The position numbers and the translations under genes were made by a program. A model generated the notes under the pieces. It worked only from the letters and a program-made list of their open reading frames with translations, made no database searches and was not told the DNA's origin. A stretch of DNA of 41,624 nt. It comes from a bacterium. Its GTDB lineage: Bacteria; B130-G9. The DNA is taken from assembly GCA_021160245.1 (NCBI GenBank), contig JAGHCW010000018.1, positions 1 to 41,624 of the forward strand, written 5' to 3'. This document shows, one piece after another, positions 1 to 35,472 of this stretch (positions are counted from its first letter, which is position 1; every line of letters begins with the position of its first letter).

Positions 1-1113
1 CCCATAAACCGTCATAAGATTCGACAGGTCAGCATCCTTGCTCTTGTGGCAGAACTCGCAAAACACGCCCCGTTGGGCAAGTCCCGTCAATTTCGACATA
101 TCCGAATCATAAGGCGATTTGAGCGCGGCAACAGGCGCATGGCAAAGCGCGCAGCTTCCAGCCGTATTGGGGAAATCGAGCTTGTATCCCATCCCCACGC
201 CCGGATTCCCGCTCACGTCCGTGCCGCTATAGAGCGTCTGAAATATCTGATTGCTAGCGGAGAGCGCATGGGAATTAACAGACCACTGTTCATGTATGCC
301 CGGGTGGCACTTTATGCAGAAATCCTGCTCGAGATTGACCGGGTCCGGCGCCAGCCACTCATACGCCTCGTCATCGTCCTCGGTAATCGCGTTGAGATGC
401 AGGATCACGCTCACGGTCGGAGGCGTCGCCTCAACTACCGCGCAGTAATATCCATACTTCCAGGCAGAGACCCTGACCGTTTTCCCGCACGGCACGCCCT
501 CAAGGCGGAACCGCCCGTTACTATCGCTCAGCGTTGCATTGGGCGTTGTCTGTATCTTCACCGTGGCTGACGAGGCAAGCCCATGCTCGTCGAATATCGT
601 CCCGCTCAAGGTGCAACGCTGCGGCCGAAAATAAAAGGACGCGCCGGAAATGGAAATAACCGACGAAGTTCCTGAGAGACAGGCCATCGAGTAAAGCGTG
701 TATGTGCCCTCGGCAAGGTCAAGCTCGCGGGCAAAGACCGCCTTGTAAACCAGAGTCTTTCCCAGAACTTGCCCGACAAAAAGCCGCAGATTCCTCGCAG
801 CAGGTACCAATGTCCTAAAATAGCTCGAATCCGCCGGGAAAAGCTCGCTATTCTCGACCATAAGGCCGGAGAACGACAGATCGGGCACGAGGCAGAATAA
901 CTGGCCATCCGGAGTCGCAATGGCAAGATACAGATCAATCTCCAGCTCGTCCGAACCGCTATCCATTGCCAAATAGAGCCTGAGCCGGTCCCACGTGATG
1001 TACTTCTGCTTCTCAGGACTGAACTCAATCGACAGGCCCTGCGAATCGCCTTGATCCTGAGATAGCCCTAGCGCAGAAATGCCACAAAGACACAGGATTA
1101 GGGCTGTTAACAT
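1..1113 (-). CDS. Multihaem c-type cytochrome (cytochrome c554-like) with N-terminal signal and carboxypeptidase-regulatory-like domain; C-terminus runs off the window
   Basis: Manual minus-strand translation from ATG at 1113-1111: MLTALILCLCGISALGLSQDQGDSQGLSIEFSPEKQKYITW...LSGTIFDEHGLASSATVKIQTTPNATLSDSNGRFRLEGVPCGKTVRVSAWKYGYYC...DFCIKCHPGIHEQWSVNSHALS...SCALCHAPVAALKS...GVFCEFCHKSKD..., open to base 1. Three CxxCH motifs. Absent from the supplied ORF list because it has no stop in the window; the listed 606..1028 ORF is a shadow frame. Confidence 0.85.
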   Translation of the reverse strand, partial: MLTALILCLCGISALGLSQDQGDSQGLSIEFSPEKQKYITWDRLRLYLAMDSGSDELEIDLYLAIATPDGQLFCLVPDLSFSGLMVENSELFPADSSYFRTLVPAARNLRLFVGQVLGKTLVYKAVFARELDLAEGTYTLYSMACLSGTSSVISISGASFYFRPQRCTLSGTIFDEHGLASSATVKIQTTPNATLSDSNGRFRLEGVPCGKTVRVSAWKYGYYCAVVEATPPTVSVILHLNAITEDDDEAYEWLAPDPVNLEQDFCIKCHPGIHEQWSVNSHALSASNQIFQTLYSGTDVSGNPGVGMGYKLDFPNTAGSCALCHAPVAALKSPYDSDMSKLTGLAQRGVFCEFCHKSKDADLSNLMTVYG

Positions 1114-1207
1114 GTCCACCTCTACTCGCCGAGAGCACATTGTGCAGCCGCACTTTAAATTCTGAGACTGTTGTACAAAATGCCGAAAAACAACTTGAAC
1201 GTCAAGC

Positions 1208-1480
1208 GCCGAAGAATCAGATTGGCGCAGGCGGCTCTGGCCTTTTGGACTGCGGCGGCTTGATGCCGCTTTCACTGGTGGTGGCTTGACACCACCATCA
1301 TAGATTGCTCTCTTGCCCTTTCAGACAGCGATTTAGGGACCCAGACACCAATGGGCCTAACATAGCACGCCGCGCCTGGCCGCGGCGATCAAAAAGCGGC
1401 GCCTGCCACCGCACTCCGAAATTATCCAGCCTGTGCATCTCACAAACTGATCCCTTTCGAGATCATAATCCTGATGAAGC
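1208..1480. repeat. Second, diverged copy of the dispersed intergenic element, with tandem hairpins
   Basis: ccgaagaatcagattggcgcaggcggctctggccttttggactgcggcggcttgatgccgc parallels cccgaaaaatcagattggcgcgggcggttctggctttttggagtgcggtggctcgacgccgc at 20167; hairpins GCGGCggcttgatGCCGC and GGTGGTGgcttgaCACCACC; distal part (gcatctcacaaactgatcc...) resembles 20253 onward. Confidence 0.6.
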
Positions 1481-1485
1481 TTGGG

Positions 1486-2514
1486 CTAAATGTGGCAGCG
1501 CCTGCACTGCTCGCCGGGGTCCGGATGCTTCATATAAGGTGAATGACAGGACCGACACTGCTCATCACCAACGCCCCTGTGCCGCCCGTCATTCGGGATA
1601 GGCGCTGCCTGAGCACGATGGCTTGAGTCGGTCTTATGACATACAAAGCATGACTGGCCCGAAAGCGGAAAGTGACACATCAAGCAGTGCCGACTTCGAG
1701 GCGAGCCAAAGGAGCCGGTATGCGTTCGAGGCGCATTGCTCTCGTGGCAACTGGTGCAGAGATCGGTTTTATGACAAGTCAAACATCTGCGCCTGTCCAT
1801 GCCTGCCGCGATTCCATGGCCTCGCCGTCGGAAGAAGTTGGTGTGGTCGCGGGGTTGCTGGGTCTGATGGCAGCTCTGGCATTCTGAGTCCAGATGGCAC
1901 ATCTTGCAGCGATACTCGGACGGAAAATCACGGCTCTCCCGCACAGCGTAACCGTGCGCTCGTTCCCAACCTCGTGCGTGTGAGGGCGGCGCCCATTCCC
2001 TGTTGATAACCTTGTGGCAAATCTGGCATTCACTTGACAGATTGGCCTTGCCGTGACAGCTCAGGCAGTCGTCTTTTGACACCTTCAGCTCGGCCGTAAT
2101 CGCCCCGCTCCCCGTTATGCCTCGATGGCAAGACTCGCAGTTGATGCCTTTTCCAGAATGGAGCTTGTGCGAGAAGATGACATCTTCAGGAACGTTAGTT
2201 ACCGTGCTGAGGCTGAGTCGCCCGTCCCGAACGAAGGGCTCGATGTATTTCGCATATTGCTCCGCGCCTCGGTGGCAGGTCTTGCAGGCAGCGAGCTTTG
2301 GCATCCCGGCGTCGTTGGACTCGCGGCAACCCGGATGGCAGCTCTCGCAATCTTGTCCCAGCTTGGTAACATGAACATCATGGCTGAAGGGAAATCGCCC
2401 AGCGCCCGCTGGCGACAGCTCGTGGTAAACCGTGCAGCCGAAGAACGCCAGCAAGACGCCCAACACAAGCAACCCAAGATTCGTCTTCAGCTTTCTGAGA
2501 TTCTCAATTATCAA
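1486..2514 (-). CDS. Multihaem c-type cytochrome, 13 CxxCH motifs, N-terminal membrane/lipoprotein-like signal
   Basis: 342 aa; motifs counted: CESCH, CKTCH, CESCH, CLSCH, CQICH, CKMCH, CQSCH, CLTCH, CTSCH, CLMCH, CFVCH, CRSCH, CRRCH. Repeated FSHxxH contexts as in cytochrome c7/c3-type proteins. N-terminus LGLLVLGVLLAFFGC is lipobox-like. Confidence 0.95.
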   Translation of the reverse strand: MIIENLRKLKTNLGLLVLGVLLAFFGCTVYHELSPAGAGRFPFSHDVHVTKLGQDCESCHPGCRESNDAGMPKLAACKTCHRGAEQYAKYIEPFVRDGRLSLSTVTNVPEDVIFSHKLHSGKGINCESCHRGITGSGAITAELKVSKDDCLSCHGKANLSSECQICHKVINREWAPPSHARGWERAHGYAVRESRDFPSEYRCKMCHLDSECQSCHQTQQPRDHTNFFRRRGHGIAAGMDRRRCLTCHKTDLCTSCHESNAPRTHTGSFGSPRSRHCLMCHFPLSGQSCFVCHKTDSSHRAQAAPIPNDGRHRGVGDEQCRSCHSPYMKHPDPGEQCRRCHI

Positions 2515-3956
2515 AACGCCACCTTAAGGTCGGCCTGAACTCTGTGATAAATCTCGAAATCATCGTCCTCAAGATCATACCTCAACCCAAGCGTAAGCAC
2601 CTTCACAGGCCTAAACCGTAGCTTAACATAGTACGTCCTGACGTCGTCCCGCTCCATGTCCGAAAAGTAATCATACTCAAAGAGCGAATAAGCGGAACCC
2701 AGCGACACCTTGAACTTGCGACCGACCTCATAATCCAAGTCGCCGCCAATCGTCCAGTTGTCCCCAGATTTCGCCTCGCTATCCCACAGGTCCCCGTTGA
2801 GGCTGAACGTCAAGTCCTCGATTGGGAGGTCGAATAGCGAAAGGATGGTGAAATACCTCTTGAACTCATGGTTATAGGTCGATTCATCTCTCTTCCTCCT
2901 CAACTGCCTCAACTCAAAGCCCGCCTCGGCCAGAAAATGCTCCGTCCAGCCCTTGTGAGCCGCGAACCGGGCCTGCCAGTAAGAATACAGCTCGCGCAGA
3001 GATGAGAAACAGGGATCAAACTCAGTTGAAAACTCTCTCTTCGTCTCAAACAGCTGATAGTAGGACGCATTCACGCCGAAATCCGCCACCGGCGCCTCAT
3101 AATTCGCCCGGAAGAGGAGATCGCCATCGTTGTCATTGAGCCTCTCGTACTGCAAATGAAGCCCCAGTCCAAGATCAAAGCGCTGCCAAATCGACAAGGC
3201 CAGATGATTGTCCTCCCTCTTCCCAGATTCCAGCTCGTCCTCAACGCGAGCGAACGAAGTCTGAACCTTACCTCCCGTCCACGGCCTGATATTCGTAAAG
3301 AGCCCCGCGAGAAAATCCCCTGTCCTCGACGCCTCAAAAGAATGGATCGGAAGACCGCCATAGAACGTGAACTCAAGCGACTTAAGAGACCGTATTCTCT
3401 CGGTCGTAACCAGCGCTCCATCGAAATGCGCCGGCTCGGGTGTCTCATAGACCAGCTGCCGTCCGAGCCTTATCTTTTTGACAAATCCCAAGCGGTGAAT
3501 ATCTATATAACAGTAGCCAAGTCGGCTTCTTGACCTTGCCTCGTATGTCTTTCCACGGTGGTGAAACTCCCGCGAAATATGATAGGTGTCGTCAATGCCA
3601 GCAGGCATCCGAGCGCCATCGTCGCGCCTCTCGCCCAAACTCGACGTGGATAAGCTGAAGACGTGCCCAGTAACTTTGTGCCGCTCGGGGTCTCCCAAGT
3701 CCAGCGAGAGCTGGCTGTAGTTTAATAGCTCCCATTCGCCATCAGCAAATCGAAGGCGATACCGAATGAAATAGGAGCCGTGAATGGGAAAGCTCTTCTT
3801 CTTAATCTCCGCCTCCTTCTGAGCAGTCAAATCCATCTTCGCGGGTGGGCTCTCACCTGCAAAAGAGTCGCAAGATGCTGAGGCAATAAGGCATATAAGC
3901 AAGAATACAAGATGGCTTTGCCTCTTCATTCTGATCTTGCCATTACTCAGCCCCAA
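2511..3956 (-). CDS. Outer-membrane beta-barrel protein, putative porin partner of the multihaem cytochrome
   Basis: 481 aa; signal peptide in MKRQSHLVFLLICLIASASC; alternating amphipathic segments (LGLRYDLEDDDFEIYHRVQADLKVAF), C-terminal Phe, 4-nt overlap with the 13-haem cytochrome. Confidence 0.75.
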   Translation of the reverse strand: MGLSNGKIRMKRQSHLVFLLICLIASASCDSFAGESPPAKMDLTAQKEAEIKKKSFPIHGSYFIRYRLRFADGEWELLNYSQLSLDLGDPERHKVTGHVFSLSTSSLGERRDDGARMPAGIDDTYHISREFHHRGKTYEARSRSRLGYCYIDIHRLGFVKKIRLGRQLVYETPEPAHFDGALVTTERIRSLKSLEFTFYGGLPIHSFEASRTGDFLAGLFTNIRPWTGGKVQTSFARVEDELESGKREDNHLALSIWQRFDLGLGLHLQYERLNDNDGDLLFRANYEAPVADFGVNASYYQLFETKREFSTEFDPCFSSLRELYSYWQARFAAHKGWTEHFLAEAGFELRQLRRKRDESTYNHEFKRYFTILSLFDLPIEDLTFSLNGDLWDSEAKSGDNWTIGGDLDYEVGRKFKVSLGSAYSLFEYDYFSDMERDDVRTYYVKLRFRPVKVLTLGLRYDLEDDDFEIYHRVQADLKVAF

Positions 3957-4013
3957 ACTCGGTGTCAGCGGATTCTCAACTCAAAAGCGCTTTTTGCTTT
4001 ATGATGATTATCC

Positions 4014-4019
4014 TATAAT
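4014..4019 (+). promoter_or_regulatory. Candidate -10 box (TATAAT) upstream of tilS
   Basis: Exact TATAAT about 58 nt upstream of the tilS start in a divergent intergenic region; no convincing -35 box at standard spacing. Confidence 0.35.
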
Positions 4020-4076
4020 GTTTGTGCATTAAGGAGCAAGGTGGGTGAGTCTGACCCCCGTATTCAAGGTTAGGTA

Positions 4077-5522
4077 TTGACTATGACAGACGGGAATCTC
4101 CAATCGCAGACGGAATTGGTTCCGGTAACGGTCATCAAGACAATCGCCGAGACCAAGATGTTCTCCCCAGGCGACAAAGTGTTAATCGCCTACTCCGGCG
4201 GGCCAGACTCAACCGCCCTAGTCCACATCCTCATGCGGCATAGAGATAGGTATCGAATATCGCTTGACCTCTGCTACTTAAACCACAACCTACGAGGCGA
4301 TCAATCGGACTTCGAGCAAAAGTTCGTCGAACGCGCCGCATCAGCCCTCGGCCTGCCGCTCCATGTAAAGGTCCTCTCCGAGAATGAAGCGTCCGAAATC
4401 GCAAGAGGGTCGATTGAGGCGCGGGCAAGAGCGCATAGACTCTCTTTTCTCAAAGATACGGCGGCGGCAATCAGCGCGGACAAGATTGCCACCGGCCACA
4501 CGTCAGACGATCAGGTGGAGACCCTTCTCATGCGACTCTTCATAGGCACGGGCCCGGACGGCTTCCGAGGTATTGAGCCAATCTCCTCGCGCCTCGTTCG
4601 CCCATTGATCAACACGCCAAAGTCGGAGCTTCTGGCGTTTCTTGACTGCAATGGGATTGATTACGTCCAGGACAGCACGAATCTCCAAACCAGATTCCTG
4701 CGCAACAGAGTACGGCATCAACTTGTCCCAAGAATAGTTGAGATATTTGGCGATCATGCGTTGCGAAAGATCTGCGCTCTCTCGAAGATCGTCCAGGATG
4801 AATCAAAAATCGTCAGCAAATTGGCTTGGGAAGCCTATCAGGAAGCCCGGCAAGACTCGAGCGAACCTCTATCGCTTAATGTAGAGAACTTAGATCGCTT
4901 GAAGCCGGCGCTCTTGAGGCGCGTTCTTAGGCTCGCGCTATCGGAGTCTGGCTACGATAATCAGACCATTCGCGCAAATCATCTCGGATTGCTTCAATCC
5001 GTGCTTAAGTCTAGTAAAAGCGAACCAAGCGTATTGCTGCCCGGCGGCATCAGAGTTCTGAGAAGAAATGGTCTAATGCTCTTCGATGCGAGCGCGGAAG
5101 TATCCCACGCCCTGCCGTTCTGCGTGGAGCTGCCGGTGCCCGGCGAAGCCTCGGTTGCGGATCGATCTCTTCGTATTACGGCACAGATCGTTGAAGAGCC
5201 GTCGAGATTGTTGCCGATATCGGAGGAAGGCGCTCTAATCGATATGGACTCCTGCCTCGGCCAGGGCAATGCCCTTATCCTAAGAAGCGCGAGCCCTGGC
5301 GATGCATTTGCGCCTCTTGGAATGACCGAGAAAGTCGGTGTGAGTTCCTTTCTAAAGAAGGCCAAAATCCCGAGTTCGGCAAGAAAGCACTATCCGCTGC
5401 TCTGCAGCCAGAGCGGGCAGGTGCTTTGGATTATAGGCATGAGAATCGACCACTCGGCGCGAGTAACAACGAGCAGTCAACGAGGCGTCCTGCTGCTCAC
5501 GCAGAGCGTTCCGAAGAGTTAG
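4077..5522 (+). CDS. tilS: tRNA(Ile)-lysidine synthase TilS
   Basis: VLIAYSGGPDSTALVHIL (SGGxDS PP-loop), YLNHNLRGDQSDFEQ, GHTSDDQVETLLMRL; 481 aa. Start may be TTG 4077 or ATG 4083. Confidence 0.95.
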   Translation: MTMTDGNLQSQTELVPVTVIKTIAETKMFSPGDKVLIAYSGGPDSTALVHILMRHRDRYRISLDLCYLNHNLRGDQSDFEQKFVERAASALGLPLHVKVLSENEASEIARGSIEARARAHRLSFLKDTAAAISADKIATGHTSDDQVETLLMRLFIGTGPDGFRGIEPISSRLVRPLINTPKSELLAFLDCNGIDYVQDSTNLQTRFLRNRVRHQLVPRIVEIFGDHALRKICALSKIVQDESKIVSKLAWEAYQEARQDSSEPLSLNVENLDRLKPALLRRVLRLALSESGYDNQTIRANHLGLLQSVLKSSKSEPSVLLPGGIRVLRRNGLMLFDASAEVSHALPFCVELPVPGEASVADRSLRITAQIVEEPSRLLPISEEGALIDMDSCLGQGNALILRSASPGDAFAPLGMTEKVGVSSFLKKAKIPSSARKHYPLLCSQSGQVLWIIGMRIDHSARVTTSSQRGVLLLTQSVPKS

Positions 5523-19777: not shown

Positions 19778-19874
19778 TGGCGGAAGCGTGTGGGAATCGA
19801 ACCCACCAGAGACAGCATTACTGCCCCTTACTGGATTTGAAGTCCAGAAGACCCACCAGGACCTATCCGCCTCC
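19778..19874 (-). tRNA. selC: Selenocysteine tRNA, anticodon UCA
   Basis: Reverse complement GGAGGCGG-AT-AGGTCC-TGGT-GGGTCT-TCTGGACTTCAAATCCAG-TAAGGGGCAGTAATGCTGTCTCTG-GTGGGTTCGATTCCCAC-ACGCTTCC-GCCA: anticodon loop CTTCAAA (UCA), 6-bp D stem with 4-nt loop, long variable arm, T arm GTGGG-TTCGATT-CCCAC, encoded CCA. Confidence 0.95.
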
Positions 19875-26694: not shown

Positions 26695-27477
26695 ATGGAA
26701 CTTTTCAACTTTCAAATAGAAGAGGTCCAGGTTTTCTTCCTGATATTGGCCCGGACACTTGGAGTAGTAGCGCTCGCGCCGATATTCGGTGCGCCCGTTG
26801 TTCATCGGATCGTGAAAGTGGGACTTGCCTTATTCATCACAATTCTTCTCTTCCCCGTTGTGCCAATCGACGGGGTGGTGATTCCGGATGGGCTGGGCCA
26901 GCTTGCGATAGGTCTTCTGGGCGAGCTTGCGGTTGGGATAATTGTTGGCTTCATCGCGCGTGTGTGCCTCATCGCGGTGGAAATGGGCGCTCAAGTGGTC
27001 AGCTATCAGATGGGCTTTGCAATAGCGAATGTCCTCGACCCCCAGAGCAACAGCCAGATGTCAGCCATATCGCTCTTTCAGAATATGACCGCCGTACTCA
27101 TATTTTTGGCAATTGATGCGCATCACTGGCTCCTTGAGGCGTTAGCGGAGAGTTTCAAGGCGGTCAAGCCACTCTCTGTCGTGGTTCCGAAAGAAGTTGG
27201 GCTCATGGGTGTTAATATCATGCAGAATCTATTCGTCGCGGCAGTGAAGATCGCAGCCCCGGGTATCGTCGTTCTCCTGATGGTCTCGCTGCTGATGGGC
27301 ATAATTGCTCGAACTGTGCCGCAGGTGAATATACTCATCGTGGGACTCCCTCTTAAGATAGGGATTGGGCTTATCGTGATCGGGGCGTCGATGCTTCACT
27401 TCTCAAACGAGGTAGTGAAGCTGCTGATTAGAATGCGTTTTGACATCTCAACCGCCATCAGATTCCTGGGAGGATAG
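26695..27477 (+). CDS. fliR: Flagellar export protein FliR
   Basis: 260 aa; FFLILARTLGVVALAPIFG, YQMGFAIANVLDPQSNSQMSAI; located between fliQ and flhB. Confidence 0.95.
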   Translation: MELFNFQIEEVQVFFLILARTLGVVALAPIFGAPVVHRIVKVGLALFITILLFPVVPIDGVVIPDGLGQLAIGLLGELAVGIIVGFIARVCLIAVEMGAQVVSYQMGFAIANVLDPQSNSQMSAISLFQNMTAVLIFLAIDAHHWLLEALAESFKAVKPLSVVVPKEVGLMGVNIMQNLFVAAVKIAAPGIVVLLMVSLLMGIIARTVPQVNILIVGLPLKIGIGLIVIGASMLHFSNEVVKLLIRMRFDISTAIRFLGG

Positions 27478-27483
27478 GCCTGA

Positions 27484-28611
27484 ATGTCATCGGCCCAAGG
27501 TGAGAAAACCGAAGAGGCGACTGCCAAACGGAAAAGGAAGGCCAAAGAGCGAGGCCAGGTTCCCAAAAGCAAGGAAGTCAACTCTGTGATGATTCTCACA
27601 GGCGCCCTGATCTACTTTCATTTGATGGGCATCAAATTCATCCTTGCAACCGCGCACAATATCAAGATAGGTATATCAAGAAGCGTCTCCGGACAACCGT
27701 TGAGCGCCCATTCACTTCAGTTGATTCTGAAAGGGGCGATGCAGTATTTCGCCGCAACAGTCCTTCCATTGATGGGAGTCTTAATCGTCATAGTTATCGC
27801 CGCGAATGTTATGCAAGGCGGCTTTGTCTTGACCACGAAGCCTCTTGAACCAAAATTCAGCAAGCTCAACCCACTACAAGGCTTCAGCAGGATATTCGGG
27901 TCATTCAAGACAATCGCGGAGACGGTAATCAGTATCGTGAAGCTCTCTATTGTCGCTCTGATTGGCTACTTCACAATACAGCCCGAGCTTATGAAAATCC
28001 CCATTATCTTCGAACAATCTGTCACCGAGCTTCTGGCCTACCTGTTCGATCTCGCATTCAAATTGGTTTTTCGCATCCTGATTTTCCTTATTCTACTTGC
28101 TATCTTTGACTTCTACTATCGTAGATTCGAGCACAAAAAGAGCCTTCGAATGACTAAGAAAGAGGTAAAAGACGAGTACAAGGAGATGGAAGGCGATCCG
28201 ATGATCAAGAGGCGCATACGGCAGAAGCAGTTCGATATAGCTCGACGCCGGATGATGAGTGAAGTGCCTCAAGCGGATGTGGTAATAACTAACCCGACTA
28301 GGCTGGCGGTCGCGCTGCAGTACATTGGCATCGGCGCGGGGGCGCCCGTTGTCTTAGCAAAGGGCTCGGGCACAATTGCGAAGCAGATTATCAAGATTGC
28401 GACGGAGAATGATGTGCCGATCGTGGAGAATAAGCCACTGGCGCGGGCGCTATACGGAGCAGTCGAGCCTGGAGATGTAATTCCGGAGAATCTCTATAAG
28501 GCCGTAGCGTCGGTTCTAGCGTACGTTTACAGGTTAAAGAATCGCACCGGCCAGGTGATGAGCGGCAATGCGCAAGATGCGTCAGCCAAGAGTAACGCCG
28601 CCGGGAATTGA
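27484..28611 (+). CDS. flhB: Flagellar export switch protein FlhB
   Basis: GEKTEEATAKRKRKAKERGQVPKSKEVNS; DFYYRRFEHKKSLRMTKKEVKDEYKEMEGDP; NPTRLAVALQY at the autocleavage position. Confidence 0.96.
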   Translation: MSSAQGEKTEEATAKRKRKAKERGQVPKSKEVNSVMILTGALIYFHLMGIKFILATAHNIKIGISRSVSGQPLSAHSLQLILKGAMQYFAATVLPLMGVLIVIVIAANVMQGGFVLTTKPLEPKFSKLNPLQGFSRIFGSFKTIAETVISIVKLSIVALIGYFTIQPELMKIPIIFEQSVTELLAYLFDLAFKLVFRILIFLILLAIFDFYYRRFEHKKSLRMTKKEVKDEYKEMEGDPMIKRRIRQKQFDIARRRMMSEVPQADVVITNPTRLAVALQYIGIGAGAPVVLAKGSGTIAKQIIKIATENDVPIVENKPLARALYGAVEPGDVIPENLYKAVASVLAYVYRLKNRTGQVMSGNAQDASAKSNAAGN

Positions 28612-28638
28612 GCATAATGTTCCAAAGAGATGAGATAG

Positions 28639-30717
28639 ATGCGATTAGTTGAGGCTTTTGTCGGGAAACACTATCAGAATATTATCTCTAAGTACAGCCA
28701 TCTTGTTCTCCCGATAGCTGTCATCGCGGCTCTGGTAGTTGTAATTGTTCCGCTGCCAACCACCGTGCTCGATATCCTGATCACGCTCAATATCACGCTC
28801 TCAATCGTCATCTTGCTGGTCTCGATGTACATTGAGAATCCGATGGAGTTCTCCGTATTCCCATCGATACTGCTCTTGACGAGCTTCTTTCGCCTCACAC
28901 TAAACATCGCCTCAACCAGGTTGATTCTGGCGCACGGTCACAAGGGCACTGCTTCCGCGGGTAACGTGATCAAGGCCTTTGGTGATTTCGTCGTCAAAGG
29001 GAACTTCGCGGTAGGAATAGTGCTCTTCCTAATCATAATCGCGGTCCAGTACATAGTCATCAACCACGGCGCCGTTCGGACGTCGGAGGTGACGGCCAGG
29101 TTCACCCTTGACGCGCTCCCCGGCAAGCAGATGAGCATCGACGCCGATCTCTCCGCCGGCTTCATCGATGAGAAGGAGGCGAGGGCGAGGCGCAAGGAGC
29201 TCTCAGACGAGACGGAATTTTACGGCTCCATGGACGGTGCGATAAGGTTTACCGCGCGTGATGCGATGGCCGCGATGATAATTACTGCAATAGACATAAT
29301 AGGCGGGCTCATAATAGGCGTTGGCTCCAGGGGCATGGACATAGCGTCGGCAGCAGAGAATTACACAAGGCTGACTGTCGGGGATGGCCTTGTATCCGCA
29401 ATACCCTCGCTCTTCATCTCAGTCGCCGGCGGACTGATTACGACGAGAGCCGCAGCGAAGTCGAACCTCGGTGAGGAGCTGGTGGGCCAGATACTCCTTG
29501 ATCACAGGCCCTGGATGATATCATCAGTCGCTCTCTTCGGCTTCTCCCTAGTTCCAGGGCTCCCTCATCTGTCATTTGCCCTGTTTGGAGCCGTGTCCGG
29601 TACCCTAGCCTACACAATATATAAGCAGAAATCTCTTCAGACGGAAGAGGTCGCAAAGAAAATCCCTGAAGCAAAGCCTCCGGAACGCATCGAGACGCTG
29701 ATGCGAATGGACCCGCTAGAACTGGAGGTCGGCTACGGTCTGATACGCCTCGTGGATGAGACGCAGGGCGGGGACTTACTTGCGCGGATCAAGGCGATAA
29801 GAAAGCAATTCGCCCTTGAGATGGGCCTTGTGGTTCCACCCGTTAGGATACGAGATAACTTGGAGCTCACCCAGAACGAGTACAAGATACTCCTAAGAGG
29901 CAATGATGTCGGCGGATCGGAAGTAATGATGGACCATTACTTGGCAATGAATCCTGGTATCGTTGCAGAGGAGATTGAGGGAGTAGAGACAATAGAGCCG
30001 ACATTTGGACTGCCGGCGATATGGATATCGGAAGAACAGCGAGAAGGAGCACAGCTTGCCGGTTATACAGTTGTTGATACTTCAACGATTATAGCCACTC
30101 ATGTCTCGGAGATTATCAGGGCGCATGCTGACGATCTCTTGACACGTCAAGATGTTCAAAATCTCCTAGATATGGTAATCGAGACTCATCCAAAAGTGGT
30201 GGAGGAGCTACTGAGCGACAAGGTCAGCCTGGGCACGATCCAAAAAGTCCTCAAAGGACTTCTAGTGGAGAGAGTCTCGATTCGTGATAGGGTGGCAATA
30301 CTTGAGGCGATCGCGGACGCGGTCCCATTAACAAATGACATCAACATGATAATCGAATTCGTTAGACATCGATTGGGTAGAATGATCTGTCAGCAATATC
30401 TGACCCAAGAAGGCGATCTCCCCGTTCTTGCCGTCTCGCCGGCGATTGAGCAGATAGTCGGTGATGGCGTGAAATCCACGGAGCAAGGGGCATATCCAGT
30501 GCTCGAGCCGAGTGTCGTGGAGAAGCTGGCAATAAAGGTGCGAGAGTCCATGGATTCTGCCTCAAATGACTTCGTGCCGGTGATTCTCTGCTCTCCCAAC
30601 ATAAGGCGCCACCTAAGGCATTTGACCGAGCGGTTTGTCCCAAATATCGTAATTCTATCTCATAACGAGATCCCAAGTGACCTGAAGATACGGTCATTGG
30701 GTGTCATCTCTCTTTAG
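28639..30717 (+). CDS. flhA: Flagellar export protein FlhA
   Basis: 692 aa; FPSILLLTSFFRLTLNIASTRLIL, RFTLDALPGKQMSIDADLSAGFIDEKEARARR. Confidence 0.97.
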   Translation: MRLVEAFVGKHYQNIISKYSHLVLPIAVIAALVVVIVPLPTTVLDILITLNITLSIVILLVSMYIENPMEFSVFPSILLLTSFFRLTLNIASTRLILAHGHKGTASAGNVIKAFGDFVVKGNFAVGIVLFLIIIAVQYIVINHGAVRTSEVTARFTLDALPGKQMSIDADLSAGFIDEKEARARRKELSDETEFYGSMDGAIRFTARDAMAAMIITAIDIIGGLIIGVGSRGMDIASAAENYTRLTVGDGLVSAIPSLFISVAGGLITTRAAAKSNLGEELVGQILLDHRPWMISSVALFGFSLVPGLPHLSFALFGAVSGTLAYTIYKQKSLQTEEVAKKIPEAKPPERIETLMRMDPLELEVGYGLIRLVDETQGGDLLARIKAIRKQFALEMGLVVPPVRIRDNLELTQNEYKILLRGNDVGGSEVMMDHYLAMNPGIVAEEIEGVETIEPTFGLPAIWISEEQREGAQLAGYTVVDTSTIIATHVSEIIRAHADDLLTRQDVQNLLDMVIETHPKVVEELLSDKVSLGTIQKVLKGLLVERVSIRDRVAILEAIADAVPLTNDINMIIEFVRHRLGRMICQQYLTQEGDLPVLAVSPAIEQIVGDGVKSTEQGAYPVLEPSVVEKLAIKVRESMDSASNDFVPVILCSPNIRRHLRHLTERFVPNIVILSHNEIPSDLKIRSLGVISL

Positions 30718-30734
30718 AAGCCAGGAGCGAGGAT

Positions 30735-32009
30735 TTGCAGGTAAAGCGATACGAGGCTGAGAATATGTCCGCGGCACTAAGATTAATTCGCGAAGACCTC
30801 GGGCCACAAGCATTTGTCCTCTCTACGAGGCGCATCCAGAAAACGGACGCCTCGGGGCGCGTCAGGTCGCTAATAGAGGTGAGCGCAGCTGCTGACGTCG
30901 TTGATATCAGCGGCAGAATCGATAGTAGAACCAGGGGCAGGACCGATGCTAAAGGCCCGGCCAGAACCAATGCTAGAACCAATGCGAGACCACGCTTAGC
31001 GATCCCAACTCAAGACAAGTCAGAATCAATCGCCTCATTAAAGAGGCAGATAGAGCAACTACGTATTGACATAAGTTCGCATCGGGGAGATGGAGACTCT
31101 CAGATTCTGGAAGAGCTCAGGGATGAGCTTGCGGAGGTTCGCGACCTCGTTGAGCGAGCGACCGACCGCTGGGCAGACTCAACTACAAAGAGCTATGGGC
31201 CGCTGCTATCACCCCTTTTCAGCAGGCTTCAACGCTCGGATGTGGACAGCAGGCTTGCGGCAAACGTGATTGGAATCACATCAAAGGAACTGGCTAATTC
31301 TCCGCTTTCAAACGAGAAAGACGCGCTCAAGGTTCTGATGGATGTTATGAAGCGTCAGATAAAGACAACAGGCCCAATCGAGCTGCTATCATCCGGCCCA
31401 AAGCTCGTCATACTAGTGGGGCCGACGGGAGTTGGCAAGACAACCACGCTCGCGAAGCTGGCCGCGCAGTATTCGATGTCTAAGGGGAAGAGGGTCGGCC
31501 TTTTGACTATCGATACATTCAGAATAGGCGCTGTGCAACAGCTGGCGACTTATGCGAACATACTTGAGCTTCCGCTCAAAGTATCGAATACTCCGGAACA
31601 GATGCAGAAGCACGTGAGAGAATACGATGATATGGACCTTATCTTAATTGATACCGGCGGTCGCAGCCACAAGGACAAGGATAAAATGGCCGAGCTGCTA
31701 AGCTTCATCGGACAGCGACACGATATGTATTGTGAAGTGCATTTGCTCCTCAGCGCCGCAACCAAGAATCGTGATCTTGTGGAGATAACTCGTGAGTTTG
31801 GCAAGATAGCGATCGATAATCTGGTCTTCACCAAGCTCGATGAGTGCAATAGTTTCGGCGGCATGTTCAATGAGTCGCTTTGGACACAAAAGCCAATTAG
31901 CTATGTTACAGTTGGGCAAAGCGTCCCCGACGACATAGAGGTTGCAAGCGCCGGGCAAATAGTGGAGCTTGTTCTGACAGGCAAGTTCAGAAGAAGAACC
32001 GGCAACTGA
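30735..32009 (+). CDS. flhF: Flagellar SRP-like GTPase FlhF
   Basis: MQVKRYEAENMSAALRLIREDLGPQAFVLSTR; VILVGPTGVGKTTTLAKLAAQY-type G1 motif; DTGGRSHKD; TTG start. Confidence 0.95.
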   Translation: MQVKRYEAENMSAALRLIREDLGPQAFVLSTRRIQKTDASGRVRSLIEVSAAADVVDISGRIDSRTRGRTDAKGPARTNARTNARPRLAIPTQDKSESIASLKRQIEQLRIDISSHRGDGDSQILEELRDELAEVRDLVERATDRWADSTTKSYGPLLSPLFSRLQRSDVDSRLAANVIGITSKELANSPLSNEKDALKVLMDVMKRQIKTTGPIELLSSGPKLVILVGPTGVGKTTTLAKLAAQYSMSKGKRVGLLTIDTFRIGAVQQLATYANILELPLKVSNTPEQMQKHVREYDDMDLILIDTGGRSHKDKDKMAELLSFIGQRHDMYCEVHLLLSAATKNRDLVEITREFGKIAIDNLVFTKLDECNSFGGMFNESLWTQKPISYVTVGQSVPDDIEVASAGQIVELVLTGKFRRRTGN

Positions 32010-32029
32010 GGACAGGAGACATAGGCAGA

Positions 32030-32956
32030 ATGCCCACTGGTGATCAGGCTCTGAAACTCCGGCAGATGGTCGCCTCGAGGCGCAAAGGAGCAACTGACGC
32101 GATTCAGTCAGATGAGCGCGCGCGCGAGGGGTGGCTCTCCGATGGCGGAGGAACAGTGATTGCCATTACGAGCGGAAAGGGCGGCGTTGGCAAGTCCGTA
32201 ATGACCGCAAACCTCGGCCTATATTATGCCATGTCCGGCAAGAAAGTGCTCTTGCTGGACGCGGACTTTGGCCTTGCGAATCTGGACGTTATGTTGGGAC
32301 TGAATGCTGAGAAGAACATCAGGGATGTGCTCCTCGGGGAGACGAGTATCGACGATATAACCCTTCAAGGTCCCGAGGGCATACGGCTGATTCCCGGTGG
32401 TAACGGCATACGCGAGCTCGCTAACCTGTCGCAATCACAAGTAACTGGCCTTATGGATCAGATGTCGGGATTTGACCAAGATTTTGACGTCTTGCTAATA
32501 GACACTGCCGCCGGGATAGCCGATGGGGTCTCGGGGGTGCTACTGGAGGCTGATGTCGTGATTGTCGTTACGCAGCCAGAACCCACCGCCGTGCTCGACG
32601 CTTACGCAATAATAAAAACTCTTGCGGCCGATAGACCAGGTACCCCGGCGTTCGTGGTTGCCAATCGAGTTCAGTCGGAGCAACAGGGCTCTACAGTATT
32701 CAACAATCTCCAGAACGTGGCTGGTCGGTTCTTGGACGTCAAACTAGACTTTGCGGGCTCAATTCCAGAGGACTCAAGCCTCCGAGAATCGATAAGGCTC
32801 CGAAGACCAAGTCTCTTGGAGTTCCCCGAGTCCAATTTCAGCAAGGCAATCGGTCGTATAGCGACAACGATCTCTCGTCTTTTGAGCGAAAAGGAGCGGC
32901 CTGGCCGAGGCATCGGGCGTTTCTGGAGTCGCATTATCTCACAGGGGGGCAAATGA
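32030..32956 (+). CDS. flhG: MinD-like ATPase FlhG/YlxH
   Basis: N-terminal GDQALKLRQMV (DQAxxLR FlhF-activating motif), ITSGKGGVGKSVMTANLGL deviant Walker A, LLIDTAAGIADGV. Confidence 0.95.
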   Translation: MPTGDQALKLRQMVASRRKGATDAIQSDERAREGWLSDGGGTVIAITSGKGGVGKSVMTANLGLYYAMSGKKVLLLDADFGLANLDVMLGLNAEKNIRDVLLGETSIDDITLQGPEGIRLIPGGNGIRELANLSQSQVTGLMDQMSGFDQDFDVLLIDTAAGIADGVSGVLLEADVVIVVTQPEPTAVLDAYAIIKTLAADRPGTPAFVVANRVQSEQQGSTVFNNLQNVAGRFLDVKLDFAGSIPEDSSLRESIRLRRPSLLEFPESNFSKAIGRIATTISRLLSEKERPGRGIGRFWSRIISQGGK

Positions 32957-33330
32957 GCACGAAAAGCGAGGACCAAAGCGCCTCATCCGCCCATCAGCTT
33001 GAGGCGCAAGTGCATCGCGGGCCTGTCATTCGACTTGCCAGAGGCAAGATGGCAGCTCTATTTGCCACGATCGCAGCGCTAGTCACTGCAATGATGCTCC
33101 TTTCGCGAGAGGCTACTCTGCTTGAGCTCGGACAGTCCGTTCTCACTGCCGCCTTCATTTTTGGGTGGCTGGGCTGGGCAATAGCGATTGTGCTCAATCT
33201 CTTTATCCATTCATCCGAAAAGAAGATTGAGGCCGCCAATTGCCCAGAGACAGAGAATGAGTCCCAGGGGCCTGATGGGGAAGCTCAGGAAGAGACCAAT
33301 GATGCGGCCGCGGCGGAGACTGAATTATGA
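32953..33330 (+). CDS. Small membrane protein of unknown function within the flagellar run
   Basis: 125 aa; ATG overlaps the flhG stop by 4 nt; two predicted TM segments, acidic C-terminus. Confidence 0.75.
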   Translation: MSTKSEDQSASSAHQLEAQVHRGPVIRLARGKMAALFATIAALVTAMMLLSREATLLELGQSVLTAAFIFGWLGWAIAIVLNLFIHSSEKKIEAANCPETENESQGPDGEAQEETNDAAAAETEL

Positions 33331-33381
33331 TTTTGAGACCATGTTTGATAACAACGAGACGACCTGAAGCGAGGGGATAAT

Positions 33382-34446
33382 ATGCCACGGCTGCTTTCTC
33401 AGGAAGAGATCGACGCTCTTCTTACTCAGGTCTCGACGGATGACGAAGAGGATGGGGGAGCGCAGAGGCCTCAGGATGTAATCAGCAAAAAGGCCCAGCT
33501 ATACGACTTCAAGCGACCGGATAGACTCTCCAAGGACAATATCCGCTCGTTGCACCTTATTCATGATAGGTTCGCTCGAAGCTGCTCATCGTCATTCTCG
33601 GCCTATTTGCGAACGATGTCCGAGGTCAACATAATATCAGTTGACCAATTCACATATTTCGAATTCCTGATGTCTTTGCCCGACCCGACCTGTTTCAACG
33701 TGCTGAGCATGAGCCCGTTAGAAGGGAATGCTGCGCTGGAAATCAATCCATCCATCGTCTTTCCAATTGTGGACAGACTGCTTGGCGGTCCCGGCGAGCC
33801 GCTGAATGAGATTCGTCAAATAACTAGTATCGAATTTAGAATAATCGACGGCGTAATCCAGCAGGCGCTTACCGGCCTCAAGGAGGCGTGGGCGCAGGCC
33901 ATAGAAATCGAGATCAAAATCGTCGAAAGAGAGACGAGTCCCCAGCTGATACAGATCGCCGCGCCGAACGAACCGGTCGTTCTGATATCATTTGAGGTAA
34001 AAATATCCGATCTGTCCGGCATGATGAACCTCTGCGTTCCGACAAGAATGATCGAACCTGTGAGCAATAGATTCACTCAAGATTGGCACTCGGTATCCTC
34101 AAAGAATCGGCCTGAGGATATTGGAACATGGATCAATGAACTGATGAGCGAAATTCCACTACCTGTGTCTGTGCTTCTCGGCAAAACCGTGCTCCCGGTC
34201 AAGGAAATACTCAATCTTGAGGTCGGCAATATTCTTGTTCTGCCGAACAAGGCATATTCGCCTCTTACAGTCAAGATCGCGGATAGTCCCAAATTCAAGG
34301 CCACAATTGGAGAGCATGAGCGGAAACGGTCTGTGAGGATCACATCGAGAATAGAACTGCCCAAGGCGCCCGAAGTAGCAATCAAGGGCGAGGGCGCACA
34401 GCCCCAAGAGAAAAGCCAAGCATCAGACATTAAAACGAGTACATAG
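33382..34446 (+). CDS. fliM: Flagellar motor switch protein FliM
   Basis: MPRLLSQEEIDALLTQVS (CheY-binding motif), YDFKRPDRLSKDNIRSLHLIHDRFAR, C-terminal SpoA domain. Confidence 0.96.
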   Translation: MPRLLSQEEIDALLTQVSTDDEEDGGAQRPQDVISKKAQLYDFKRPDRLSKDNIRSLHLIHDRFARSCSSSFSAYLRTMSEVNIISVDQFTYFEFLMSLPDPTCFNVLSMSPLEGNAALEINPSIVFPIVDRLLGGPGEPLNEIRQITSIEFRIIDGVIQQALTGLKEAWAQAIEIEIKIVERETSPQLIQIAAPNEPVVLISFEVKISDLSGMMNLCVPTRMIEPVSNRFTQDWHSVSSKNRPEDIGTWINELMSEIPLPVSVLLGKTVLPVKEILNLEVGNILVLPNKAYSPLTVKIADSPKFKATIGEHERKRSVRITSRIELPKAPEVAIKGEGAQPQEKSQASDIKTST

Positions 34447-34494
34447 CTGTCCGGAAATAACACCGGACCCTTATGAATTAAGCAGGGGAAACAC

Positions 34495-35472
34495 GTGGCA
34501 TTTGATCCATTCAAGACAATTGAGGCAGAGCCCAAGACTCCGATAGAGCCTCAACTTCAGCCAGTCGCGGCCGCATTCGGGCAATTGTCCGATGTGTTGA
34601 AGGAGACATTCGGTATTATGCTCGGCGCGGAGATCGAGGTCTCGAAGCCCAACTTGGGCATCTTGCCCGCAAAAGACGTCATCTCAGCCGTCGGACAGGG
34701 CATAGTTGTTGCACATACAACCTATTCAAAGGGCGTTGATGGCTCTATCTTCATCCTCGCCAAGACCAACGTTGCGGTATCCATCGTTGGGCTCATACTC
34801 GGCGTGTCTCCAGAAGAGCAAGCCGATGACCTTGACGAAGACGCAATGGATGCCTACCTTGAGCTTGTCGGCCAAGTTTGCGGAAAGGTCAACCTCTCTT
34901 TCTCGGAGCTATATGGCAAGACCGTGAGCACCAATCCATTCGCCGCTTTCTCTGGCGAAGCCGACGATGCCAAAAAACTCTTTGGCGAAGGCGACCTGCT
35001 TTGCGCGGAGCTCGGACTCTCCTCCGGCGAGGCGCTTGATGGCGCCTTCATGTTCATTATGCCGACAGGCGTCGCGGATCAGCTAGGCGCGGCCGGGGGG
35101 CAGTCGATAGACGACATAATTGCCCAAGCTGCAGAGTCCGCCGAGGCGGAAGAGGCGCCTGCTCCACCCCCAATAGATGCAGTTGCGGCCCCGATGCCGA
35201 ACGGAATGGACGAGCGGCTTCAGGTCATCATGGACATGGATTTGCCGATCCATGTGCGCTTCGGCGAGACACAGATGCTCATTAGGGACGTGTTGCAGCT
35301 GGGCCCAGGCTCAATCATAGAGCTGAATAAGTCCGTGGATACACCTGTTGATCTGGTGGTCAACAATAAGCTCGTCATCGCAAGAGGAGAAGTGGTCGTA
35401 GTGGAGTCAAACTTCGCCATCCGCATAACTGAGATCAAGAGCAAAACCGAACGCATCAAAAGCTTGAGCTAG
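34495..35472 (+). CDS. fliN: FliN/FliY-type motor switch protein with CheC/CheX-like N-terminal domain
   Basis: C-terminal VIMDMDLPIHVRFGETQMLIRDVLQLGPGSIIELNKSVDTPVDLVVNNKLVIARGEVVVVESNFAIRITEI (SpoA); about 200-aa N-terminal domain; GTG start. Confidence 0.9.
   Translation: MAFDPFKTIEAEPKTPIEPQLQPVAAAFGQLSDVLKETFGIMLGAEIEVSKPNLGILPAKDVISAVGQGIVVAHTTYSKGVDGSIFILAKTNVAVSIVGLILGVSPEEQADDLDEDAMDAYLELVGQVCGKVNLSFSELYGKTVSTNPFAAFSGEADDAKKLFGEGDLLCAELGLSSGEALDGAFMFIMPTGVADQLGAAGGQSIDDIIAQAAESAEAEEAPAPPPIDAVAAPMPNGMDERLQVIMDMDLPIHVRFGETQMLIRDVLQLGPGSIIELNKSVDTPVDLVVNNKLVIARGEVVVVESNFAIRITEIKSKTERIKSLS

Follow-up and report, generated by a model that had tools for sequence, protein, structure and literature searches.

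The first 3,956 nucleotides of the window, by which we mean the whole 41,624-nucleotide stretch analysed (contig JAGHCW010000018.1 from its first base, positions 1-41624), carry on the minus strand a gene for an outer-membrane β-barrel protein that runs directly into a gene for a densely haemed c-type cytochrome. The contig belongs to a 3.43 Mb metagenome-assembled genome (MAG) of Candidatus Coatesbacteria, an uncultured phylum. Counted from a tilS-like gene, the order is barrel, 13-haem cytochrome, a gap of 372 nucleotides and a third exported multihaem protein (Table 1). An earlier interpretation made from the letters alone, here called the sequence-only reading, had taken these genes for a candidate porin-cytochrome conduit (Pcc), a proposal which is strengthened by the co-conservation of the pair, the barrel fold and profile matches to OmbB-like and OmaB-like proteins. 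It had also described an overlap of four nucleotides between barrel and cytochrome; the length is correct, while the shared letters are TTGA, a TTG start lying over a TGA stop, and not ATGA. The promoter of the barrel gene is probably located in the divergent intergenic region, and no RNA families or repeats were found at the conduit locus.

The barrel protein has 481 residues when read from TTG 3956, or 472 from an internal ATG at 3929, and it possesses a signal peptide and the C-terminal end ...KVAF, in agreement with the signal-bearing protein ending in Phe that had been described. Neither CxxC nor CxxCH motifs occur in its sequence, and comparison by sequence with Pfam, NCBIfam and PDB gave no usable match for it or for the relatives tested. 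No MtrB/PioB model (TIGR03509 or Pfam) was matched by the barrel in hmmscan at E values up to 1, which upholds the earlier view that it is not MtrB-like; a TIGR03509 search of the host genome, run with no positive control, gave no match either. AlphaFold2, supplied with 14 homologues, models a β-barrel rather than a soluble fold (predicted local distance difference test score, pLDDT, 81) with about 22-23 long strands, an approximate count read from DSSP. The Foldseek matches listed for this model are outer-membrane barrels, with the global size agreeing best with the 22-24-strand ushers and TonB-dependent receptors (template modelling score, TM, up to 0.52-0.55 for PapC and 0.52-0.54 for PfeA) and less well with 18-strand porins (TM about 0.36). 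Pcc barrels have been given about 18-22 predicted strands (PMC4245776); the modelled count is at or slightly over this range, the two having been obtained by different methods.

The cytochrome has a TTG start, 342 residues and 13 CxxCH motifs, a count that had been given correctly and that lies far above residue shuffles of the same protein (mean 0.17, maximum 3 in 5000 trials). More than one CxxCH is found in only two reading frames of the 41.6 kb window, namely the cytochrome and the third gene, which has 3. The N-terminus forms a hydrophobic helix with a lipobox-like FFGC, and canonical lipoboxes (LAGC, VVSC, LGAC) are found in many of its relatives. Similarity to ActA, a subunit of Alternative Complex III, spans residues 14-181 (3e-20 to 7e-16), and the N-terminal half matches QrcA at 2e-15, under the family cut-off. 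The C-terminal half resembles eight-haem proteins flanked on one side by an OmbB-like barrel and on the other by an outer lipoprotein cytochrome, so that the 13 haems can be read as five in an ActA-like half plus eight in an OmaB-like half. Nine-haem relatives exist in which the first four haems are missing and the barrel still adjoins.

The sequence-only reading had named a lack of co-conservation of barrel and cytochrome as one of two findings that would refute it. Scanning genome contigs with the cytochrome alignment gave 15 loci, and each has a barrel homologue immediately upstream, ending just before the cytochrome or overlapping it. These loci come from Coatesbacteria, Planctomycetota, Elusimicrobia and several Deltaproteobacteria/Thermodesulfobacteriota; as the pair is present in several phyla, the idea that it is lineage-specific is not supported. 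Among named relatives, the closest to have this pair is another Candidatus Coatesbacteria MAG, where the pair is also near a tilS-like gene, and a C-terminal Phe is present in every complete barrel homologue whose end was checked. Searching from the barrel side, the barrel profile (A3) matched in 26 of 386 broadly sampled genomes, nearly every match adjoining a 5- to 16-haem protein, and in 62 of 395 genomes from the phylum of locus L016. Another 54 barrel loci were examined: in 50 a cytochrome carrying three or more CxxCH is encoded on the same strand no more than 2.5 kb away, and four are at contig ends. A full-sensitivity search added three more barrel matches, all beside 10-haem proteins, as well as one very weak match (L145) that was not. 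Four barrel copies occur in one genome (G377, loci L037 and L049), and a six-haem protein of about 160 residues was seen next to two of them.

The two proteins have also diverged together. The distance matrices of barrel and cytochrome, taken over 94 pairs, correlate with r = 0.94, compared with at most 0.11 in 2000 permutations, and among barrels sharing under 50% identity the correlation is 0.89; since shared ancestry contributes to the correlation, it is evidence of joint inheritance and not of contact between the two proteins. The number of haems in the partner can furthermore be predicted from the barrel tree, with 12 changes against 34 when shuffled.

To relate the pair to known conduits, profiles of the barrel (A3), the cytochrome (A4), OmbB-like barrels (A5), OmaB-like cytochromes (A6) and CxxCH-bearing MtrB-like barrels (A7) were compared using hhalign. 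The A5 architecture consists of a barrel of about 400 residues, an eight-haem protein of about 235 residues and a 9- to 12-haem lipoprotein, with two neighbouring copies in two genomes; such a duplicated arrangement has been described for Geobacter (PMC4245776). A3 matches A5 with 99.0% probability, a score of 135 and 354 aligned columns, whereas reversed A5, block-shuffled A5 and LptD score at most 35, controls by which a chance or generic-barrel origin of the match was ruled out. The 581-residue barrel-like protein of L145 scores 35. The cytochrome profile matches the OmaB-like one at 99.3%, and against A7 the barrel gave only a partial match (88%, score 55). Family comparison of the barrel thus failed for MtrB/PioB and succeeded for the OmbB-like set, and this remote homology, over most of the length of the barrel and shared by the cytochrome with its OmaB-like counterparts, removes the support for the suggestion that the locus is an unrelated solution. 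MtrB-like barrels of 633-658 residues, each with one internal CxxCH and ending ...YGG before the stop, were seen beside 10-haem lipoproteins at L127, L137 and L143, and are probably of the GSU2203/2204 type.

In a barrel tree made by a quick method, the window falls within a half of 27 rows with partners of 6-14 haems, split from the other half, which holds the OmbB-like, 10-haem and 5-haem types, with Shimodaira-Hasegawa-like approximate likelihood ratio test values of 100 on both sides. Closest to it within this half are the other Coatesbacteria, L024 and the planctomycete, all with 13 haems (support 86). Judged by these sequence comparisons, the pair is a previously unnamed sister clade of the Pcc porin-cytochrome conduits. 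Two other 13-haem cytochromes (L128 7135-8145 and L130 961-2013) have barrels in the other half of the tree, which implies either a repeated origin of a 13-haem partner or its retention.

Pcc conduits have an outer-surface cytochrome, usually a lipoprotein, in most clusters. The third gene of the window, with ATG 1113 as its likeliest start, encodes a protein with a signal peptide, a beta-rich region, a CarboxypepD_reg-like domain and a c554-like haem region. The earlier description of at least three CxxCH and a carboxypeptidase-regulatory-like domain holds, with 3 motifs so far in a reading frame cut by the contig end. A continuation elsewhere in the host genome was looked for and rejected, the multihaem loci on C173 and C240 encoding different proteins. 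The third protein is a candidate outer-surface partner that may belong to the unit; the gap with its hairpin, the lack of any such neighbour for the other Coatesbacteria pair and the variation between lineages mean that its membership is not proven.

In most other loci a multihaem protein also lies downstream of the pair, and these proteins are not of one family. The outer partners comprise CarboxypepD-reg/c554-like proteins, a PKD-bearing lipoprotein, the OmcA/MtrC family and a large eight-haem protein with an in-frame UGA, and those of L010, L012 and L014 have lipoboxes. The partner in L014 is a lipoprotein with weak CarboxypepD_reg and paired-CxxCH matches, and that in L012 is a PKD-bearing eight-haem lipoprotein. 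In the planctomycete L010 (9007-11808) a decahaem lipoprotein passes the OmcA/MtrC cut-off (TIGR03507, 221.3 vs 209.3 bits), making this locus a mixed Pcc/Mtr conduit with a Pcc-type barrel, a 13-haem wire and an OmcA/MtrC-family lipoprotein. In the 12-haem subtype the third gene encodes a protein of about 1340 residues with an in-frame TGA in all seven cases covering the site (Table 1), at the same place and in the context GAW*PPSYRQ or GGW*PPSYRQ, and a conserved stem-loop with a short apical loop follows about 15-25 nucleotides 3' of it. Judging from these features, the protein is likely a selenocysteine-containing eight-haem cytochrome. The exchangeable third gene matches the swapping of outer components reported for Geobacter conduits (PMC6148476).

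Taken together, the barrel and the 13-haem cytochrome very probably form a trans-outer-membrane electron conduit of the Pcc kind. A porin-like gene adjoins a multihaem cytochrome gene, and the cytochrome, with its 13 CxxCH, falls within the 5-14 haems of periplasmic Pcc cytochromes, its own periplasmic location being presumed. In such a conduit the barrel would be exported and fold into the outer membrane, where it would sheathe the cytochrome, with the OmaB-like eight-haem half running through the barrel and the ActA-like five-haem half remaining in the periplasm, where its exchange partners would be carriers of the periplasm or the inner membrane. At the outer end, an interchangeable multihaem protein, in the window probably the product of the third gene, would then pass electrons to something outside the cell or take them from it. 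The stable pair and the swapped outer partner suggest a fixed core with interchangeable outer ends, which is a testable idea. A literature search on Coatesbacteria and cytochromes found no relevant paper, and the locus would represent a probable extracellular electron transfer route in a phylum for which none was found. The barrel clade recurs in several phyla and yet escapes the Pfam and NCBIfam models.

The locus shares features with several known systems. The Geobacter OmbB-OmaB-OmcB conduit and its duplicates have the same order of barrel, densely haemed cytochrome and variable outer multihaem protein, a barrel homologous over most of its length and an OmaB-like set of eight haems; the window differs in having a barrel of about 470 instead of about 400 residues in a separate half of the tree, and a lipobox-like N-terminus and 13 instead of 8 haems through the added ActA-like module. 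In the Pcc clusters of Anaeromyxobacter and Kuenenia, cytochromes of 338-344 residues with 12-14 haems adjoin a barrel and an outer cytochrome is absent (PMC4245776), a likeness in size, haem number and adjoining barrel that was compared by description only. The same limit applies to the OetABI conduit in the sulfate-reducing partners of anaerobic methanotrophic archaea, which has the same three kinds of part: a periplasmic cytochrome, a barrel and an outer lipoprotein cytochrome (PMC10553843). With the MtrCAB, PioAB and GSU2203-2204 type the pair shares the principle of a barrel sheath around a multihaem wire, and the planctomycete homologue uses an outer protein of the OmcA/MtrC family, but the window barrel has neither a MtrB/PioB family match nor CxxC, and MtrA is a 10-haem protein. 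ActA and QrcA resemble the five-haem half of the cytochrome, differing in that the window module is fused to an OmaB-like eight-haem half.

This last likeness permits another explanation, in which the 13-haem protein would be anchored in the inner membrane as a quinol-side cytochrome of the ActA/QrcA/NapC kind and feed periplasmic acceptors, the barrel being an ordinary porin that only shares its operon. The ActA and QrcA matches of the N-terminal 180 residues and the long, confident N-terminal helix in the cytochrome model speak for it; however, the barrel is co-conserved at all 15 loci and nearly all of about 100 others, even beside the nine-haem relatives, the C-terminal half is OmaB-like, and among the neighbouring reading frames inspected none is NrfD-like, with the sequence left of base 1 missing and the genome not searched for NrfD. 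We regard this explanation as highly unlikely. The two halves could also act in series, a quinol-side five-haem module fused to an OmaB-like outer-membrane wire, so that a single polypeptide would carry electrons from an inner-membrane complex through the periplasm to the barrel with no separate periplasmic carriers. This is a doubtful, speculative idea; if true, it would fit the small number of other multihaem cytochromes found in this genome. A conduit of only two parts, with the adjacent third gene encoding an independent exported cytochrome, is compatible with the core of the conduit interpretation and has a fair, though less than even, chance of being correct: the other Coatesbacteria pair and the Anaeromyxobacter and Kuenenia clusters (PMC4245776) do without an adjacent outer cytochrome, and the gap holds a terminator-like hairpin, which was counted against membership of the unit and is not clearly above chance, whereas most other loci do have a multihaem protein downstream, several with clear lipoboxes, though not of one family. 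As for the substrate, the conduit might serve a purpose other than respiring solid acceptors, such as extracellular reduction of soluble oxyanions or electron uptake from a partner cell. In Geobacter, ExtI influences the reduction of selenite and tellurite (PMC6148476), syntrophy has been proposed as the role of OetI-type conduits (PMC10553843), and few multihaem cytochromes were found in the host genome; the sequence holds nothing that decides the substrate, and we consider this a tentative possibility, on the unlikely side.

Several observations weigh against the conduit interpretation itself. The AlphaFold2 model of the cytochrome is poor (pLDDT 51) and unusable, as is to be expected when haems are left out. 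Architecture, and not accession, was the basis on which the OmbB-like and OmaB-like sets were identified, and the barrel is absent from two further genomes of the family to which the host belongs. The third gene is incomplete, has no clear lipobox and lies 372 nucleotides away, and BLASTP found no significant similarity between its product and the third proteins of L014 and L012. A Cytochrome_C7 model search of the host genome found only two other multihaem proteins, an UshA-like-looking protein with a four-haem c554-type end (C173 6309-7586, L151) and a four-haem lipoprotein (C240 3466-4026, L152). Typical metal reducers are unlike the host in this respect.

Table 1. Coordinates of features in the window and of third genes with an in-frame TGA at related loci.
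Feature	Position	Strand	Basis
Outer-membrane β-barrel (porin) subunit	2511..3956	-	Reading frame, signal peptide, C-terminal Phe, AlphaFold2, Foldseek, OmbB-like profile match
13-haem c-type cytochrome, 342 aa	1486..2514	-	Reading frame, TTG start, CxxCH count, N-terminal hydrophobic helix
Cytochrome N-terminal module, about residues 1-180, 5 CxxCH	1975..2514	-	ActA-like (Alternative Complex III) and QrcA-like similarity
Cytochrome C-terminal module, about residues 181-342, 8 CxxCH	1489..1974	-	OmaB-like similarity; boundary approximate
Third gene (exported multihaem protein), truncated by the contig end after 371 codons	1..1113	-	Reading frame, domain scan
Terminator-like hairpin and T run between cytochrome and third gene	1396..1412	-	Not clearly above chance for the region
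Divergent intergenic region, barrel gene / tilS-like gene	3957..4076		Probable promoter place
tilS-like gene	4077-5522	+	Reading of the reading frame
tRNA-Sec	19782-19874	-	Rfam match, 75 bits
Flagellar-type gene run	26695-35472	+	Reading of the reading frames
Third genes with in-frame TGA	L015 9010-12264, L016 3350-7339, L018 9005-13021, L019 7720-11748, L020 8986-13011, L022 8914-12939, L017 3830-4759		

Elsewhere in the window, the presence of a tRNA-Sec gene makes it probable that selenocysteine is used in this Coatesbacteria lineage. The organism is probably also motile, since flagellar-type genes (fliR, flhB, flhA, flhF, fleN and a fliM/fliN-like gene) follow one another in a run.

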